DNA from: Thermoanaerobacterales bacterium
Lineage (GTDB): Bacteria > Bacillota > Thermosediminibacteria > Thermosediminibacterales > Tepidanaerobacteraceae
Assembly (NCBI GenBank): GCA_012840135.1
Contig: DUMA01000007.1
Coordinates: 1-64,000 of the forward strand
DNA length: 64,000 nucleotides
Reading direction: 5' to 3'
In this document: positions 23,164 through 27,830 of the stretch, piece by piece
How positions within the stretch are numbered: position 1 is the first letter of the stretch
How the letters are laid out: each line of letters begins with the position of its first letter
The notes under the pieces: generated by a model
Seen by the model: only the letters and a program-made list of their open reading frames with translations
Told to the model about the DNA's origin: nothing
The model's database searches: none
Made by a program: the position numbers and the translations under genes

Positions 23164-23215
23164 AAAAATGTAAATTGGCATAATGTAGAAACGAATGATA
23201 AGGAGGTGTGAGCAG

Positions 23216-23746
23216 TTGCCTGAAAACGAGCGTCATGGTGATGTAACTTTCAAAGGTCAAGCTCTGACAGCAATAGGACCATTGCTAAAAGCCGGCGATA
23301 AGGCACCGGACTTTAAGGTCCTGAACAATGCCCTGGAAGAGGAAACCCTTGCCACCACCCGGAGCAAGATAAGGCTCATTGCTTCGGTACCCTCCCTGGA
23401 TACCCCTGTCTGTGATATGGAAACCCGGATGTTCAACAAAGAAGCCGTATCTTTCGGCAGCGATGTGGAAGTCTTAACCATCAGCATGGATCTCCCATTC
23501 GCCCAGAAAAGGTGGTGTGCCGCTGCGGGCGTGGATAGGGTAAGGACCCTCTCCGATCACCGAGAAGCTTCCTTCGGAAAAAACTACGGAGTCCTGGTAA
23601 AGGAGCTTCGGCTCTTGCAAAGGGCGATCTTTCTCGTGGATAGGGATGACATCATCCGTTATGTTGAATATGTAAGGGAAATAGGTCAGGAGCCCAATTA
23701 TGAAGCGGTCTTGCAGCAGATAAAACACCTTACAGGCGCTTTGTAA
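23216..23746 (+). CDS. tpx: Thiol peroxidase, Tpx type
   Basis: A 176-residue atypical 2-Cys peroxiredoxin that reduces H2O2 and alkyl peroxides with thioredoxin-type reductants. Peroxidatic Cys66 is in PSLDTPVCDMETR and resolving Cys101 in KRWCAAAGV, the expected Tpx spacing. The start is TTG 23216, nine bases after AAGGAGG; the in-frame ATG at 23195 lies upstream of that site and cannot use it. First gene of the peroxide/iron cluster, controlled by a promoter with a PerR-like operator. Confidence 0.93.
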   Translation: MPENERHGDVTFKGQALTAIGPLLKAGDKAPDFKVLNNALEEETLATTRSKIRLIASVPSLDTPVCDMETRMFNKEAVSFGSDVEVLTISMDLPFAQKRWCAAAGVDRVRTLSDHREASFGKNYGVLVKELRLLQRAIFLVDRDDIIRYVEYVREIGQEPNYEAVLQQIKHLTGAL

Positions 23747-23903
23747 ATTCTCTTTAATTACATCACATGAATTTTGTGCTGTGCGGAAATGTACATACCC
23801 AACCATTAAAATCAACTATCCTGATTTTTGCATAAAATCATTTGTTGGATCTGAAACTATTAATAATTTATTAAAATTTATTAAAACACGAGGGGGTAAA
23901 ATT

Positions 23904-24407
23904 ATGAAAACCATGACCAAGGAAAACCTTAAGGCAGCCTTTGCCGGCGAAAGTCAGGCCCATATGAAGTATCTCATTTTTGCAGATACGGCCGAAAAAG
24001 AAGGCAAACCCAACATAGCGAGATTATTCAGAGCCATAGCCTATGCGGAACAGGTCCATGCCACCAATCATTTCAAAGCCCTTCAGGAATTAAACGGAAC
24101 TGCTGACAATCTACAGGTAGCCATCAACGGAGAAAATTTCGAAGTTGACGAGATGTATCCCGCTTATGATGCGGTAGCAAAGCTGCAGGACGAAAAAACA
24201 GCGGAAAAAAGCATTCATTATGCCATTGAGGCTGAAAAGATTCATGCATCCCTGTACGATGAAGCGAAAAAAATGGCTCAAAATGACAGCGATATAAGCG
24301 GAGAAGAAATTTATATCTGTCCCGTCTGCGGTTACACAGTAAAAGGCGCCGCTCCGGACAAATGCCCTGTATGCGGGGTTTCAAAGGATAAATTCGCAAA
24401 ATTTTAA
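23904..24407 (+). CDS. Rubrerythrin
   Basis: A 167-residue peroxide-scavenging protein. The N-terminal four-helix domain contains the di-iron ligands (AGESQAHMKY, EQVHATNHF, and EKIHASLYDEA in the second half), and the C-terminal rubredoxin-like domain has two CPVCG pairs near residues 140 and 156. It reduces H2O2 using electrons from rubredoxin or the flavoprotein encoded downstream. ATG 23904 follows GAGGGGG by 8 bases; the longer open frame upstream lacks a start signal. It lies 157 bases after tpx. Confidence 0.95.
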   Translation: MKTMTKENLKAAFAGESQAHMKYLIFADTAEKEGKPNIARLFRAIAYAEQVHATNHFKALQELNGTADNLQVAINGENFEVDEMYPAYDAVAKLQDEKTAEKSIHYAIEAEKIHASLYDEAKKMAQNDSDISGEEIYICPVCGYTVKGAAPDKCPVCGVSKDKFAKF

Positions 24408-24471
24408 AACAGGCCATTATTCGCCGAGTACATTTTTTTCCAGCAAATAAATCCTTACAGCCGACGAGGTT

Positions 24472-24513
24472 GGATGTCTGCCATACTGCCCTCTCGCATA
24501 CAGGCAGGCATCC
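24472..24513 (+). other. Strong hairpin in the rbr-cargo intergenic leader
   Basis: GGATGTCTGCC (24472-24482) pairs with GGCAGGCATCC (24503-24513), an 11-bp stem with one G-U pair and a 20-base loop. No T-run follows. It lies between rubrerythrin and the encapsulin cargo gene and may be an mRNA stabiliser, processing site or attenuator. Confidence 0.55.
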
Positions 24514-24561
24514 CGTCTGTTATATAAATCAACTTATTTTGAATTTAAGGAGGAAAATGGT

Positions 24562-24915
24562 ATGCCTGATTTTGGTAATGCTTTTTCTGGACTCGCCAAA
24601 GACCGCAAACTTACCGAACAGGAACTTATTCGGGCCATCAGATTCATGGTTGCTGCAGAATACGAAGCAGTACAGTTATATATGCAGTTGGCGGAATCCA
24701 TAGAAAACGAACTGGCAATTGAAGTTTTAAAAGACATAGCCGATGAAGAAAGGGTGCACGCAGGAGAATTCTTAAGACTGTTATATGAACTTGCCCCGGA
24801 TGAAAAACAATTTTATGCAGAAGGTGCCAGAGAAGTTGAACAGGAAATCTTAAATCTACATAAAAAAAGGTCTGGAAAAGATTTAACCGTAGGAGATCTT
24901 AAGAATCAAAATTGA
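24562..24915 (+). CDS. Encapsulin cargo: ferritin-like iron-oxidising protein
   Basis: A 117-residue ferritin-like protein with two helices and one set of di-iron ligands per chain (Glu33, Glu63, His66 in AAEYEAVQLY and DEERVHAGEF), so a dimer or higher assembly is needed for a full ferroxidase site. The C-terminal LTVGDLK (108-114) matches the family 1 encapsulin cargo-loading peptide. It should oxidise Fe(II) inside the shell encoded immediately downstream. It resembles the ferritin-like domain fused to encapsulin in Pyrococcus, here as a separate protein. ATG 24562 has AAGGAGG 8 bases upstream. Confidence 0.9.
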   Translation: MPDFGNAFSGLAKDRKLTEQELIRAIRFMVAAEYEAVQLYMQLAESIENELAIEVLKDIADEERVHAGEFLRLLYELAPDEKQFYAEGAREVEQEILNLHKKRSGKDLTVGDLKNQN

Positions 24916-24917
24916 AA

Positions 24918-24951
24918 GGTAGGTGTAAAGGCGGCATCTACAAGTACCGCC
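24918..24951 (+). promoter_or_regulatory. Encapsulin ribosome site separated from the start by a hairpin
   Basis: The only Shine-Dalgarno-like sequence, AGGTAGGTG (24918-24926), is 31 bases from ATG 24958, too far in linear form. GGCGG (24930-24934) and CCGCC (24947-24951) between them form a hairpin; folding would leave about 9 bases, a normal spacing. Confidence 0.5.
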
Positions 24952-24957
24952 GTATTT

Positions 24958-25809
24958 ATGTCAGATTTTCTGAACAGACAGGCTTCACCCCTTTCGGACG
25001 AACAATGGGAAGCTTTCGAAAGTGTAATTATTTCCACTGCCCGTCAGCAGCTGGTGGGCCGCAGATTCTTATCCATCGTAGGCCCATTGGGAGCAGGTGT
25101 CCAGCACATTAATATCGACGCCCTGTCCGGTGAATTGGAAGCAGAAACAGACCTTGAAGGAGAAGATGAGTCCGGTGTCATTGTCCAGGCCCGCAGGTCT
25201 TACAAAAGCATACCGATTCTTTATAAAGACTTCAAGGTCAACTGGCGCGATATTGAAACCTCAGAAACCTCAGGCATTCCCCTGGATACTGCGTCGGCAG
25301 CAGCCTGCGCATACAGTGTGGCGCTGGCCGAAGATGACCTTATTTTCAACGGCCACACGGAATTGGGAATATCCGGCATCTTTACCGTTCAGGGAAAAAC
25401 CTCACTGGCTATCGGCGACTGGAATCAGTCCGGTACGGCATATGATGATGTGGTAAAGGCTATAGAAGCCCTTTCGCTAAAAGGTTTTTACGGCCCCTAT
25501 GCCCTGGTGGTAAGCCCGAAATTGTTTGCCGCTTTGAACAGGGTATACAAAGATACTCCCTATCTTGAATTGGACCGGATTAAAAACCTTATGTCCGCCG
25601 GTGTTTTCCAATCTCCGGCCATATGTGACGACAGTGCGGTCGTGGTGTCCACCGGCCATCAGAACCTGGATCTGGTTATTGCTATGGACCTGAGCCTTGC
25701 CTTCCTGGAGACCACAAAAATGAACCACACTTTCAGAGTTCTGGAAATGGTAATTCCCAGGATAAAGAGGCCGGATGCAATTTGTACTCTTGAAACGAAT
25801 AAGTGCTAG
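24958..25809 (+). CDS. Family 1 encapsulin shell protein
   Basis: A 283-residue HK97-fold nanocompartment protein (linocin M18/CFP29 family), near the usual 265-280. Visible: LSDEQWEAFESVIISTARQQLVGRRFL at the N-terminus (P-domain start, cargo-docking region), GLGISGI-like ELGISGIFTVQG, the YGPYALVVSPKLFAALNRVYKDTPYLELDRI core and TTKMNHTFRVLEMVIPRIKRPDAIC at the C-terminus. Shells of this family assemble into 60- or 180-mers that store iron with a ferritin-like cargo, here the upstream gene. An unusual Cys is the last residue. The ribosome site is distant and bridged by a hairpin. Confidence 0.95.
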   Translation: MSDFLNRQASPLSDEQWEAFESVIISTARQQLVGRRFLSIVGPLGAGVQHINIDALSGELEAETDLEGEDESGVIVQARRSYKSIPILYKDFKVNWRDIETSETSGIPLDTASAAACAYSVALAEDDLIFNGHTELGISGIFTVQGKTSLAIGDWNQSGTAYDDVVKAIEALSLKGFYGPYALVVSPKLFAALNRVYKDTPYLELDRIKNLMSAGVFQSPAICDDSAVVVSTGHQNLDLVIAMDLSLAFLETTKMNHTFRVLEMVIPRIKRPDAICTLETNKC

Positions 25810-25857
25810 AAAAATTGGTTTTCACATGGTAACTAATTTAAATGAGGAGGCTTTATT

Positions 25858-26193
25858 ATGTCAAAGTGGCAGTGTTCTGTATGCGGTTATATCTACGAAG
25901 GAGATGAGGCTCCGGAAAAATGCCCCAAATGCGGCGCTCCAAAAGATAAATTTGTAAAACTGGATGATCAGGCCGCGGAGCTGGTGGAGAGGTCGAGATT
26001 TTCCAATAATTTGCACATGGAGCTTTCCACCCTTATGGAAAAAGTAAAAGAAATATCCGACAAAGGCATAAAAGATGCTCTCGACCCCAACTGTGTAACC
26101 TTATTTAAGTTTTCTCTGGCAACAGCCATAGATATCCAGCAAAGAATTAAGGCCGAGCTTAAAGCTCACATGAACAAGGGCAAATGGGGTTAA
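25858..26193 (+). CDS. Rubredoxin-like zinc-ribbon protein with C-terminal helices
   Basis: A 111-residue protein with an N-terminal rubredoxin-like knuckle pair (Cys6, Cys9, Cys22, Cys25 in [10 protein letters not shown] and [11 protein letters not shown]), closer in length to the rubrerythrin C-terminal domain than to classic rubredoxin. Residues 40-111 are helical with no known motif. The Cys2-Cys2 site could bind iron and pass electrons to rubrerythrin or the encapsulated cargo (inference from context). ATG 25858 has GAGGAGG 9 bases upstream. Stand-alone proteins of this layout occur near rubrerythrins but lack an assigned role. Confidence 0.75.
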
Positions 26194-26267
26194 TGAGCAG
26201 TAAAAAGTAAAACCTGGTTTAAAATTGAAATATTAATCAAAAATACTTATAAAACGGAGGGTGTAAC

Positions 26268-26426
26268 ATGAAAAAATGGATTTGCACCGTGTGCGGATAT
26301 GTCTACGACCCGGAAAAGGGGGACCCGGACAACGGCGTGGCTCCGGGCACTGCTTTTGAAGACATACCCGATGATTGGGTTTGCCCCGAATGCGGTGTTG
26401 GCAAGGATATGTTCGAGGAACAATAG
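26268..26426 (+). CDS. Rubredoxin
   Basis: A 52-residue classic rubredoxin: [18 protein letters not shown], the [18 protein letters not shown] loop and Cys6, Cys9, Cys39, Cys42 binding one iron. It is the small electron carrier expected between the NAD(P)H flavoprotein at 26613 and the peroxide-reducing enzymes upstream. ATG 26268 has CGGAGG 8 bases upstream. Confidence 0.97.
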
Positions 26427-26461
26427 GCCACTGGCTCATCCCCCTCTTTATCATATATCTT

Positions 26462-26493
26462 AAGGGCCCGGTTAAAAATCCGGGCCCTTTATT
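26462..26493 (+). terminator. Terminator of the tpx-rubredoxin cluster
   Basis: AAGGGCCCGG (26462-26471) pairs perfectly with CCGGGCCCTT (26480-26489) around an 8-base loop, followed by TATTAAA. The stem is strong and the T-tract weak, so read-through into the flavoprotein gene is possible. Confidence 0.6.
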
Positions 26494-26612
26494 AAAGGGT
26501 CGGGTTTAAAATTCTCACTTATCCGCGAGATTCATGAGACTTTTTTGCTGTTTTACTGTGAAATGAACGGTTTTATAAACCGGCATCCAAATCTACATAA
26601 GGAGGTTTTTAC

Positions 26613-27830
26613 GTGGACCCAATAGTTATTGTCGGCAACGGAGTTGCCGCCGTCTCTGCAGTGGAAGCATTCAGAGAACATGACAAAAATACCCGGATTA
26701 TAATAGTAAGCGCCGAACCCTATCACGCATACTACCGCATGCGTCTATCCCATCTTCTGGGTGAAGACCCCGAAGTAGAAAAACTGTTGATACACGACCC
26801 TGTCTGGTATGAAGAAAACGGCATACAGGTGCTTCTTGGTCGCAGAGCTGTTTCGATAGATGTGGTGAGCAAATCTTTAAAACTTGATGATGGAAAAGTT
26901 CTCACGTTCTCCAAGCTTCTGCTGGCACAGGGCAGCGATCCTTTTGTACCTCCGGTTTCGGGGACCGATTTAGACGGGGTTTTCCCTGTAAGGACTGTGG
27001 ACGATGTAAAAAAACTTTATACCTATTCCCTGGATAAAAATAGCGGCGTCGTAGTAGGTGGCGGTGTTTTAGGCCTTGAAGCAGCCTGGGCCTTAACAAA
27101 AAAGGGCAAAAAAATAAGCGTTTTCGAAGTAGCGCCATATCTCCTGATAAAGCAACTGGACGAGGAATCCTCAGGGATGTTAAAATCTCTGGGGGAAAAG
27201 GCCGGCATGAGTTTCATACTATCCGATCAACTGGTGGAAATCAAAGGAAATGGCTCGGTTTCCGGTGTTTCTTCAAAGTCGGGTCGTGAAGTGGAAGCAG
27301 ACTTTGTGGTGTTTTCCATAGGTGTGCGGCCCAATACAGGGATACTGAAAGACATCGGCATCAATGTAAATCGAGGTGTCGTGGTGGATGAACACATGCA
27401 CACATCTCTCAAAGACATCTATGCCGCCGGAGATGTGGCAGAATTTGCCGGAAAGGTTTACGGCATATGGCCGGTGGCCAAGGAACAGGGTAAGATCGCA
27501 GGCCTTAACATGGCCGGTATATCCGCTTCATACAGTGAAATAGTACCTTCAAATTATATAAAAGTATTCGATACCGAGATCTTTTCCGCCGGTGACCTCT
27601 GCAAGGAAGAAAGTGCCCATGCCGTAATAACCGATATTCAGCCTGAAAACAATATATACAGAAAAGTATTTTTCAAAAAAAATAATGTGCCGGTGGGAGT
27701 GATACTCCTCGGCGATACAAAACCGGCCGTGAAAATATCAAGAGCCATCAAAATCGGCCGGGATATCCCTGAAGATATAATCAGGTCCAACAACTTTGAG
27801 AGATTCGTTCAGCAACTGGACTACAACTGA
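26613..27830 (+). CDS. NAD(P)H-dependent FAD oxidoreductase, rubredoxin-reductase-like
   Basis: A 405-residue pyridine-nucleotide-disulfide-type flavoprotein. FAD-binding VIVGNGVAAVSAV (about 4-16), NAD-binding GVVVGGGVLGLEAAWAL (about 145-160), the TSLKDIYAAGDVAEF second FAD motif and a C-terminal reductase domain are visible; no CxxxxC disulfide is present. The class includes NADH:rubredoxin oxidoreductase and nitrite-reductase flavin domains. Position after two rubredoxin genes suggests it feeds electrons to them. The start is GTG 26613 with AAGGAGG. After the TGA the same frame remains open for 27 protein-like codons. Confidence 0.9.
   Translation: MDPIVIVGNGVAAVSAVEAFREHDKNTRIIIVSAEPYHAYYRMRLSHLLGEDPEVEKLLIHDPVWYEENGIQVLLGRRAVSIDVVSKSLKLDDGKVLTFSKLLLAQGSDPFVPPVSGTDLDGVFPVRTVDDVKKLYTYSLDKNSGVVVGGGVLGLEAAWALTKKGKKISVFEVAPYLLIKQLDEESSGMLKSLGEKAGMSFILSDQLVEIKGNGSVSGVSSKSGREVEADFVVFSIGVRPNTGILKDIGINVNRGVVVDEHMHTSLKDIYAAGDVAEFAGKVYGIWPVAKEQGKIAGLNMAGISASYSEIVPSNYIKVFDTEIFSAGDLCKEESAHAVITDIQPENNIYRKVFFKKNNVPVGVILLGDTKPAVKISRAIKIGRDIPEDIIRSNNFERFVQQLDYN

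Follow-up and report, generated by a model that had tools for sequence, protein, structure and literature searches.

A hairpin between a distant Shine-Dalgarno sequence and the encapsulin start codon: a probable split ribosome-binding site in one bacterial order

How is the shell gene of an encapsulin operon translated when no Shine-Dalgarno (SD) sequence lies close to its start codon? This question is raised by the cargo-shell junction of the window, by which we mean the whole stretch of 64,000 nucleotides that was analysed. On the forward strand, an encapsulin cargo gene of the rubrerythrin/ferritin-like type (117 aa, 24562..24915; PF02915, 5.1e-07) ends with a TGA stop codon at 24913-24915, and the encapsulin shell gene (283 aa, 24958..25809; PF04454, 6e-73) starts with the ATG at 24958. 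From 24913 to 24960 the leader reads, in order, TGA A AGGTAGGTG TAAA GGCGG CATCTACAAGTA CCGCC GTATTT ATG. The SD sequence AGGTAGGTG (24917..24925) begins 1 nt past the cargo stop and forms a duplex of -11.7 kcal/mol with the 3' end of the 16S rRNA, whereas anti-SD pairing near the encapsulin ATG reaches -0.2 kcal/mol at best. The two arms of a spacer hairpin, GGCGG (24930..24934) and CCGCC (24947..24951), enclose the 12-nt loop CATCTACAAGTA (24935..24946), and a linker of 6 nt (24952..24957) joins the hairpin to the start codon. The end of the SD lies 32 nt from the ATG, a distance that falls to 10 nt when the 22-nt hairpin is subtracted. The sequence-only reading of this locus had put these distances at 31 and about 9 bases, and the measured coordinates correct both; its distant SD, its GGCGG/CCGCC pairing that shortens the gap and its claim that no other ribosome site lies near the encapsulin start are retained.

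The same arrangement is found in the relatives of this bacterium. A first search of 61 genomes gave an encapsulin match in 15. Seven of these, the window included, have a readable start and come from two families of one thermophilic order: G000 (the window), G004 (apparently the Tepidanaerobacteraceae MAG JANLFP010000007.1), G009, G018 (presumably Thermosediminibacter litoriperuensis), G016, G017 (presumably Thermovorax subterraneus) and G021 (apparently the MAG QGUT01000089.1). Another seven (G003, G006, G010, G011, G012, G041 and G052) carry distant encapsulins preceded by a plain SD. G001, which shares its genus with the window, was left out, only encapsulin fragments with a lost start being present there. 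The strict test that we applied combines SD pairing, a stem of at least 4 pairs and the linkers; with a narrower SD window it misses G018, and the wider window was fixed ahead of the controls. By this test, a distant SD, a hairpin and the ATG, with no proximal SD, are present at all seven encapsulin starts of the clade, the distant SD pairing at -8.4 to -12.1 kcal/mol and the proximal pairing reaching -3.5 kcal/mol at best. The bridged SD proposed from the single sequence thus held up among the relatives of the clade, none of which has an ordinary site without the hairpin.

The raw distance between SD and ATG is 32 nt in G000, 30 in G004, 32 in G009, 29 in G018, 25 in G016, 25 in G017 and 24 in G021, and subtraction of the hairpin leaves, in the same order, 10, 10, 10, 11, 10, 12 and 11 nt, the value for G017 becoming 10 when its outer U-G pair is counted. 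The hairpin therefore varies from 13 to 22 nt in length and the remainder stays at 10-12 nt, as expected of a physical bridge. The cores of the two arms, GCGG and CCGC, are identical in the seven leaders and are separated by 12, 10, 12, 10, 5, 5 and 5 nt, respectively; the loop, of 5-12 nt among relatives, is unconserved, and the linker from the hairpin to the start codon measures 5-7 nt in relatives. The clade is old: on the protein tree, the window and G021 are 1.26 changes per site apart, the longest distance from the window within the clade.

Translation from ATG 24958 yields a complete Linocin_M18 protein whose N-terminus falls at the same place as in relatives, and the match to PF04454 (Linocin_M18; 245.6 bits, residues 3-265) is a full-length one. 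In the window, no in-frame ATG, GTG or TTG was found between the cargo stop and this ATG. An earlier start was rejected, there being no in-frame candidate in the window and a same-frame stop 27 nt upstream of the ATG in G004; so was a later one, the next three in-frame starts being without an SD (-1.5 to -2.6 kcal/mol). A cargo-shell fusion by readthrough of the TGA would find an open frame up to the ATG in the window, yet the cargo stop of G004 and G016 lies in a different frame, and this candidate was rejected as well. The cargo protein ends with LTVGDLKNQN, which we take to be a targeting-peptide-like tail. It resembles the tail quoted in PMC6668986. The surroundings of the junction (23195-27830) form an oxidative-stress neighbourhood, with genes for a redoxin, a rubrerythrin, the encapsulin cargo and shell, a rubredoxin-like protein and a pyridine nucleotide-disulphide oxidoreductase with a rubredoxin-reductase C-terminus.

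Outside the clade, the control comprised 100 distinct encapsulin starts, identical leaders being counted once and three loci without a start (L076, L089 and L111) being excluded. The arrangement occurs at 0/100 of these starts and a proximal SD at 99/100. The exception is a Chloroflexi encapsulin start (L063, 2441-2500), a relative of which (L024) has GGGAGG near its ATG. In an encapsulin tree of 32 rows (33 were given and L094 was dropped; the fragmentary G009 was omitted), the six rows with the hairpin lie on one side of a branch (99/96), which corresponds to one change. The sample taken from the window's own genome (693,902 bases, about 22% of the genome) contained 556 testable genes, 523 with a proximal SD and 33 without; 17 cases show the arrangement at one or another candidate start, and the encapsulin is the sole one of them that lacks a proximal SD. 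A 400-kb sample of G017 (322 genes) gave 15 arrangement matches, the encapsulin included, and one further G017 gene has no proximal SD by the cut-off (a TTG candidate with a weak SD). In that genome the encapsulin's own start has a proximal pairing of -3.4; the gene's entry of -6.5 comes from a different in-frame candidate, necessarily a downstream one, since the ATG precedes all other candidates in that frame. The strict test recovers T4 gene 38; T4 gene 25 passes a looser test only. The leader was also considered as a repeat element or a regulon and rejected as such: among 26 genomes of the class, the model R1 is strong only at three encapsulin leaders (about E 1e-12 or better; next match, E 0.049), which are the same three from which it was built.

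Taken by itself, the window leader is far less telling. Shuffling of the spacer, 2000 times for each leader, reproduces the arrangement 39 times in G000, 52 in G004, 39 in G009, 18 in G018, 11 in G016, 28 in G017 and 16 in G021. The motif itself is not rare, GGCGG..CCGCC being counted 2 times and GCGG..CCGC 9 times in the 64 kb, and the 70-nt window leader has an ordinary fold energy (z -1.49; 16/200 shuffles are equally good). Its minimum-energy fold pairs GTAGGTG of the SD (24919-24925) with CATCTAC of the loop (24935-24941) and does not contain the GGCGG/CCGCC hairpin. In the window leader from -45 to +33, the GCGG/CCGC core has a predicted probability that rises from 0.30 at 37 C to 0.56 at 70 C, and competing pairings of the SD are predicted to beat the bridging stem at 37 C; such folds were absent from the sequence-only reading. 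Because these statistics are modest, one sequence alone is weak evidence, and the arrangement is strong because it recurs in the seven leaders of the clade. The unremarkable energy of the single leader is also what a functionless inverted repeat arisen by chance would show, an explanation to which we give next to no credit given the 7/7 inside the clade against 0/100 outside it and the retention of both arms across a long divergence.

Since the core is invariant, there is little true covariation: its four pairs never vary (7/7), and there is consequently no compensatory change among them. The outer flanking pair is G-C in three leaders, C-G in one, U-G in one and unpaired in two, and the inner flanking pair is U-A in one, A-U in one and unpaired in five. 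RNAalifold on a MAFFT alignment of the leaders returned 0 pairs, the stems being out of register in that alignment, and a covariance model built on the three closest leaders failed, at E 10, to detect the four others. With an invariant core and these null results, the hairpins of the two families are linked by their position, their core sequence and their place in the operon. Seven leaders of a single order also make a small sample. As for the covariation that the sequence-only reading proposed to look for in relatives, the arrangement is kept, compensatory core changes are lacking and changes of pair type are confined to the flanking pairs.

The model we favour, with a probability of about 0.72, is the translation of the encapsulin from a split ('accommodated') ribosome-binding site. 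It builds on the observed arrangement, its recurrence throughout the clade, its absence elsewhere and the constant remainder. The 30S subunit would bind the SD just past the end of the cargo gene; between SD and ATG, the GC hairpin would fold and remove 13-22 nt from the path, and the ATG would thereby reach the P site with an effective spacing of 10-12 nt. We infer that the stem folds in vivo, that it is used by the ribosomes and that it raises initiation; the leader is thus likely to belong with the accommodated ribosome sites. Furthermore, a ribosome terminating on the cargo gene would sit on the SD, which makes some translational coupling to the cargo likely too; such a ribosome would cover both the SD and the hairpin, so that coupling is plausible.

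The same geometry invites a reading by termination-reinitiation, in which the ribosomes that have finished the cargo restart at the encapsulin ATG, the SD merely holding them and the hairpin being a minor spacer. It would fit the closeness of the SD to the cargo stop, past which it starts within about 10 bases in all but G021, and the distances from stop to ATG (42 nt in the window, 44 in G004, 42 in G009 and 32 in G016); in G021 (L022, 2467-2501) the cargo frame crosses the SD and its TAA stop lies inside the hairpin loop, 13 nt before the ATG. Neither a conserved stem nor a remainder held at 10-12 nt under varying loop length is predicted by this mechanism, however, and many encapsulins outside the clade likewise follow an apparent cargo tail with a plain SD and without a hairpin, so that we regard it as unlikely. 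The hairpin could instead be an operator or a processing site, whose recognition by an RNase or by a protein, conceivably the capsid-like shell protein itself, would set the level of the shell. The core GCGG/CCGC is indeed invariant in sequence, beyond mere pairing, but the loop, of 5 to 12 nt, shows no conservation, and most protein operators do not resemble a hairpin with a variable, unconserved loop. The absence of a proximal SD means, moreover, that the gap would still have to be bridged somehow. No terminator was found at the hairpin, and no Rfam family reached its gathering score in the window, where the one match, to a snoRNA, lies elsewhere at chance level (E 1.5). We hold an operator or processing site to be quite improbable.

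An RNA thermometer or switch, in which base pairs to the loop or to the coding sequence would close the SD and heat or the cargo ribosome would open it, has to be weighed against the predicted folds. The SD-loop pairing reaches -8.5 kcal/mol in G000 and -6.4 kcal/mol in G009, with 20/500 and 19/500 shuffled loops as good, respectively; it is absent from the five other leaders of the clade, and a conserved SD-loop pseudoknot was therefore rejected. Codons 10-12 of the encapsulin, TCA CCC CTT in the window (24985..24993), resemble the 16S anti-SD and are a candidate pairing partner of the SD. They read TCA CCY CTN in the seven clade genes, TCACCYCT being the stretch that resembles the anti-SD, and codon 10 (Ser10) is TCA in 7/7 clade encapsulins against 6/30 outside genes that have Ser-Pro there. 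In the clade, the pairing of the SD with the coding sequence lies on average 0.14 above the synonymous mean (n=7), an excess that is weak, since random outgroup sets of seven reach 0.14 in 5% of cases (~0.05), and that is individually clear in G009 only; in G018 and G017 it is nil. We regard this pairing as a lead. The predicted thermal trends differ among the relatives: from 37 to 70 C, the probability of the core goes up in G000, down in G004, G009 and G021, and stays nearly level in G018, G016 and G017. For the 12 nt that precede the hairpin, the predicted mean probability of being unpaired passes from 0.38 to 0.58 in G000, from 0.45 to 0.44 in G009 and from 0.59 to 0.58 in G018 over the same interval. 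At 70 C, the isolated hairpins are predicted at -0.6 to -2.8 kcal/mol and the core probabilities at 0.43-0.98, these predictions being rough; a growth optimum of 71 C is given for Thermovorax subterraneus in PMC9679718. The folding predictions thus point to no thermometer behaviour common to the relatives, thermal control is not supported, and a thermometer or switch appears very improbable. The dependence on temperature that the sequence-only reading had suggested finds no support in these opposite shifts in predicted stem probability, and the shell:cargo ratio tuned by RNA folding that it had advanced is not supported either.

A two-state leader that would tie the synthesis of the shell to that of the cargo is a more elaborate possibility, which we consider doubtful. 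The SD would be shut by the anti-SD-like codons 10-12, and in two members also by the loop; the ribosome finishing the cargo would open it, and the hairpin would then present the ATG. If this were true, the shell:cargo ratio would be written in the RNA of the operon of a cellular organelle.

To our knowledge, structure-bridged ribosome sites are known from two T4 genes. According to PMC3014915, in which Nivinskas 1999 and Malys 2009 are cited, folding brings the SD-AUG distance from 22 to 5 nt in gene 38 and from 27 to 11 nt in gene 25. The same text describes a lowering of initiation by mutations that weaken the stem, a confirmation of gene 25 by DMS probing, and a gene 25 arrangement confined to one clade of relatives. 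The encapsulin leader is close to the gene 26-25 junction as described there, with its SD near the upstream stop (directly after UAAUAA in the gene 25 sequence), its hairpin between SD and AUG and its restriction to a clade. Gene 25, in contrast, is a phage gene whose AU-richer stem of 7 pairs starts at the SD and which, according to the same text, is proven by experiment, whereas the encapsulin leader is that of a bacterial order, is known from its sequence, and has a GC core in a stem of 4-6 pairs, which a few nt separate from the SD. Gene 38 shares with it a GC-rich hairpin between SD and AUG that the same strict test finds, and differs by a UUCG-capped stem, a shorter effective spacing and its role in phage tail-fibre assembly. 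Encapsulin operons with a ferritin-like cargo, such as the IMEF systems of Bacillota, have, like the window, the cargo gene followed by the Linocin_M18 shell gene; outside the clade, they differ by a plain SD near the shell ATG (99/100 starts). In the literature on bridged, split or accommodated sites, encapsulin mRNA structure, translation initiation and cargo-shell coupling, a search to which the subscription literature contributed little showed, among the papers listed, neither a bridged site of cellular origin nor one in an encapsulin gene; titles and abstracts combining encapsulin and Shine-Dalgarno likewise gave nothing on this arrangement. By its sequence, the encapsulin leader looks like a new, cellular case of the split site of T4 genes 38 and 25. 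Such a case in a bacterial operon, spread over two families, would offer, in loops of 5-12 nt and in raw gaps of 24-32 nt, a natural series for testing how far a folded spacer can bridge. Start-site models that require an SD no more than about 15 nt away can overlook or misplace genuine starts, and the cargo-shell junction of encapsulins becomes a place where the level of the shell may be set.

The operon itself has had varied fates in the clade. In G009 (L016, L009 and L018), an internal deletion follows about residue 46 of the encapsulin and the frame of the cargo is apparently broken, yet the leader retains the SD, the hairpin and the ATG; this MAG is 68% complete, and the deletion may be an assembly error. 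G001 (L011/L017) contains a decayed encapsulin operon, in which an internal encapsulin fragment comes directly after the rubrerythrin gene and is accompanied by a second fragment, a C-terminal one, the cargo gene and the encapsulin start being gone. In the sister family (L004, L005, L006 and L003), the cargo is of about 300 aa, with apparently repeated ferritin-like stretches and a tail reading FTVGSLK or similar; large as it is against the 117 aa of the window cargo, the arrangement of the encapsulin leader is the same nonetheless.
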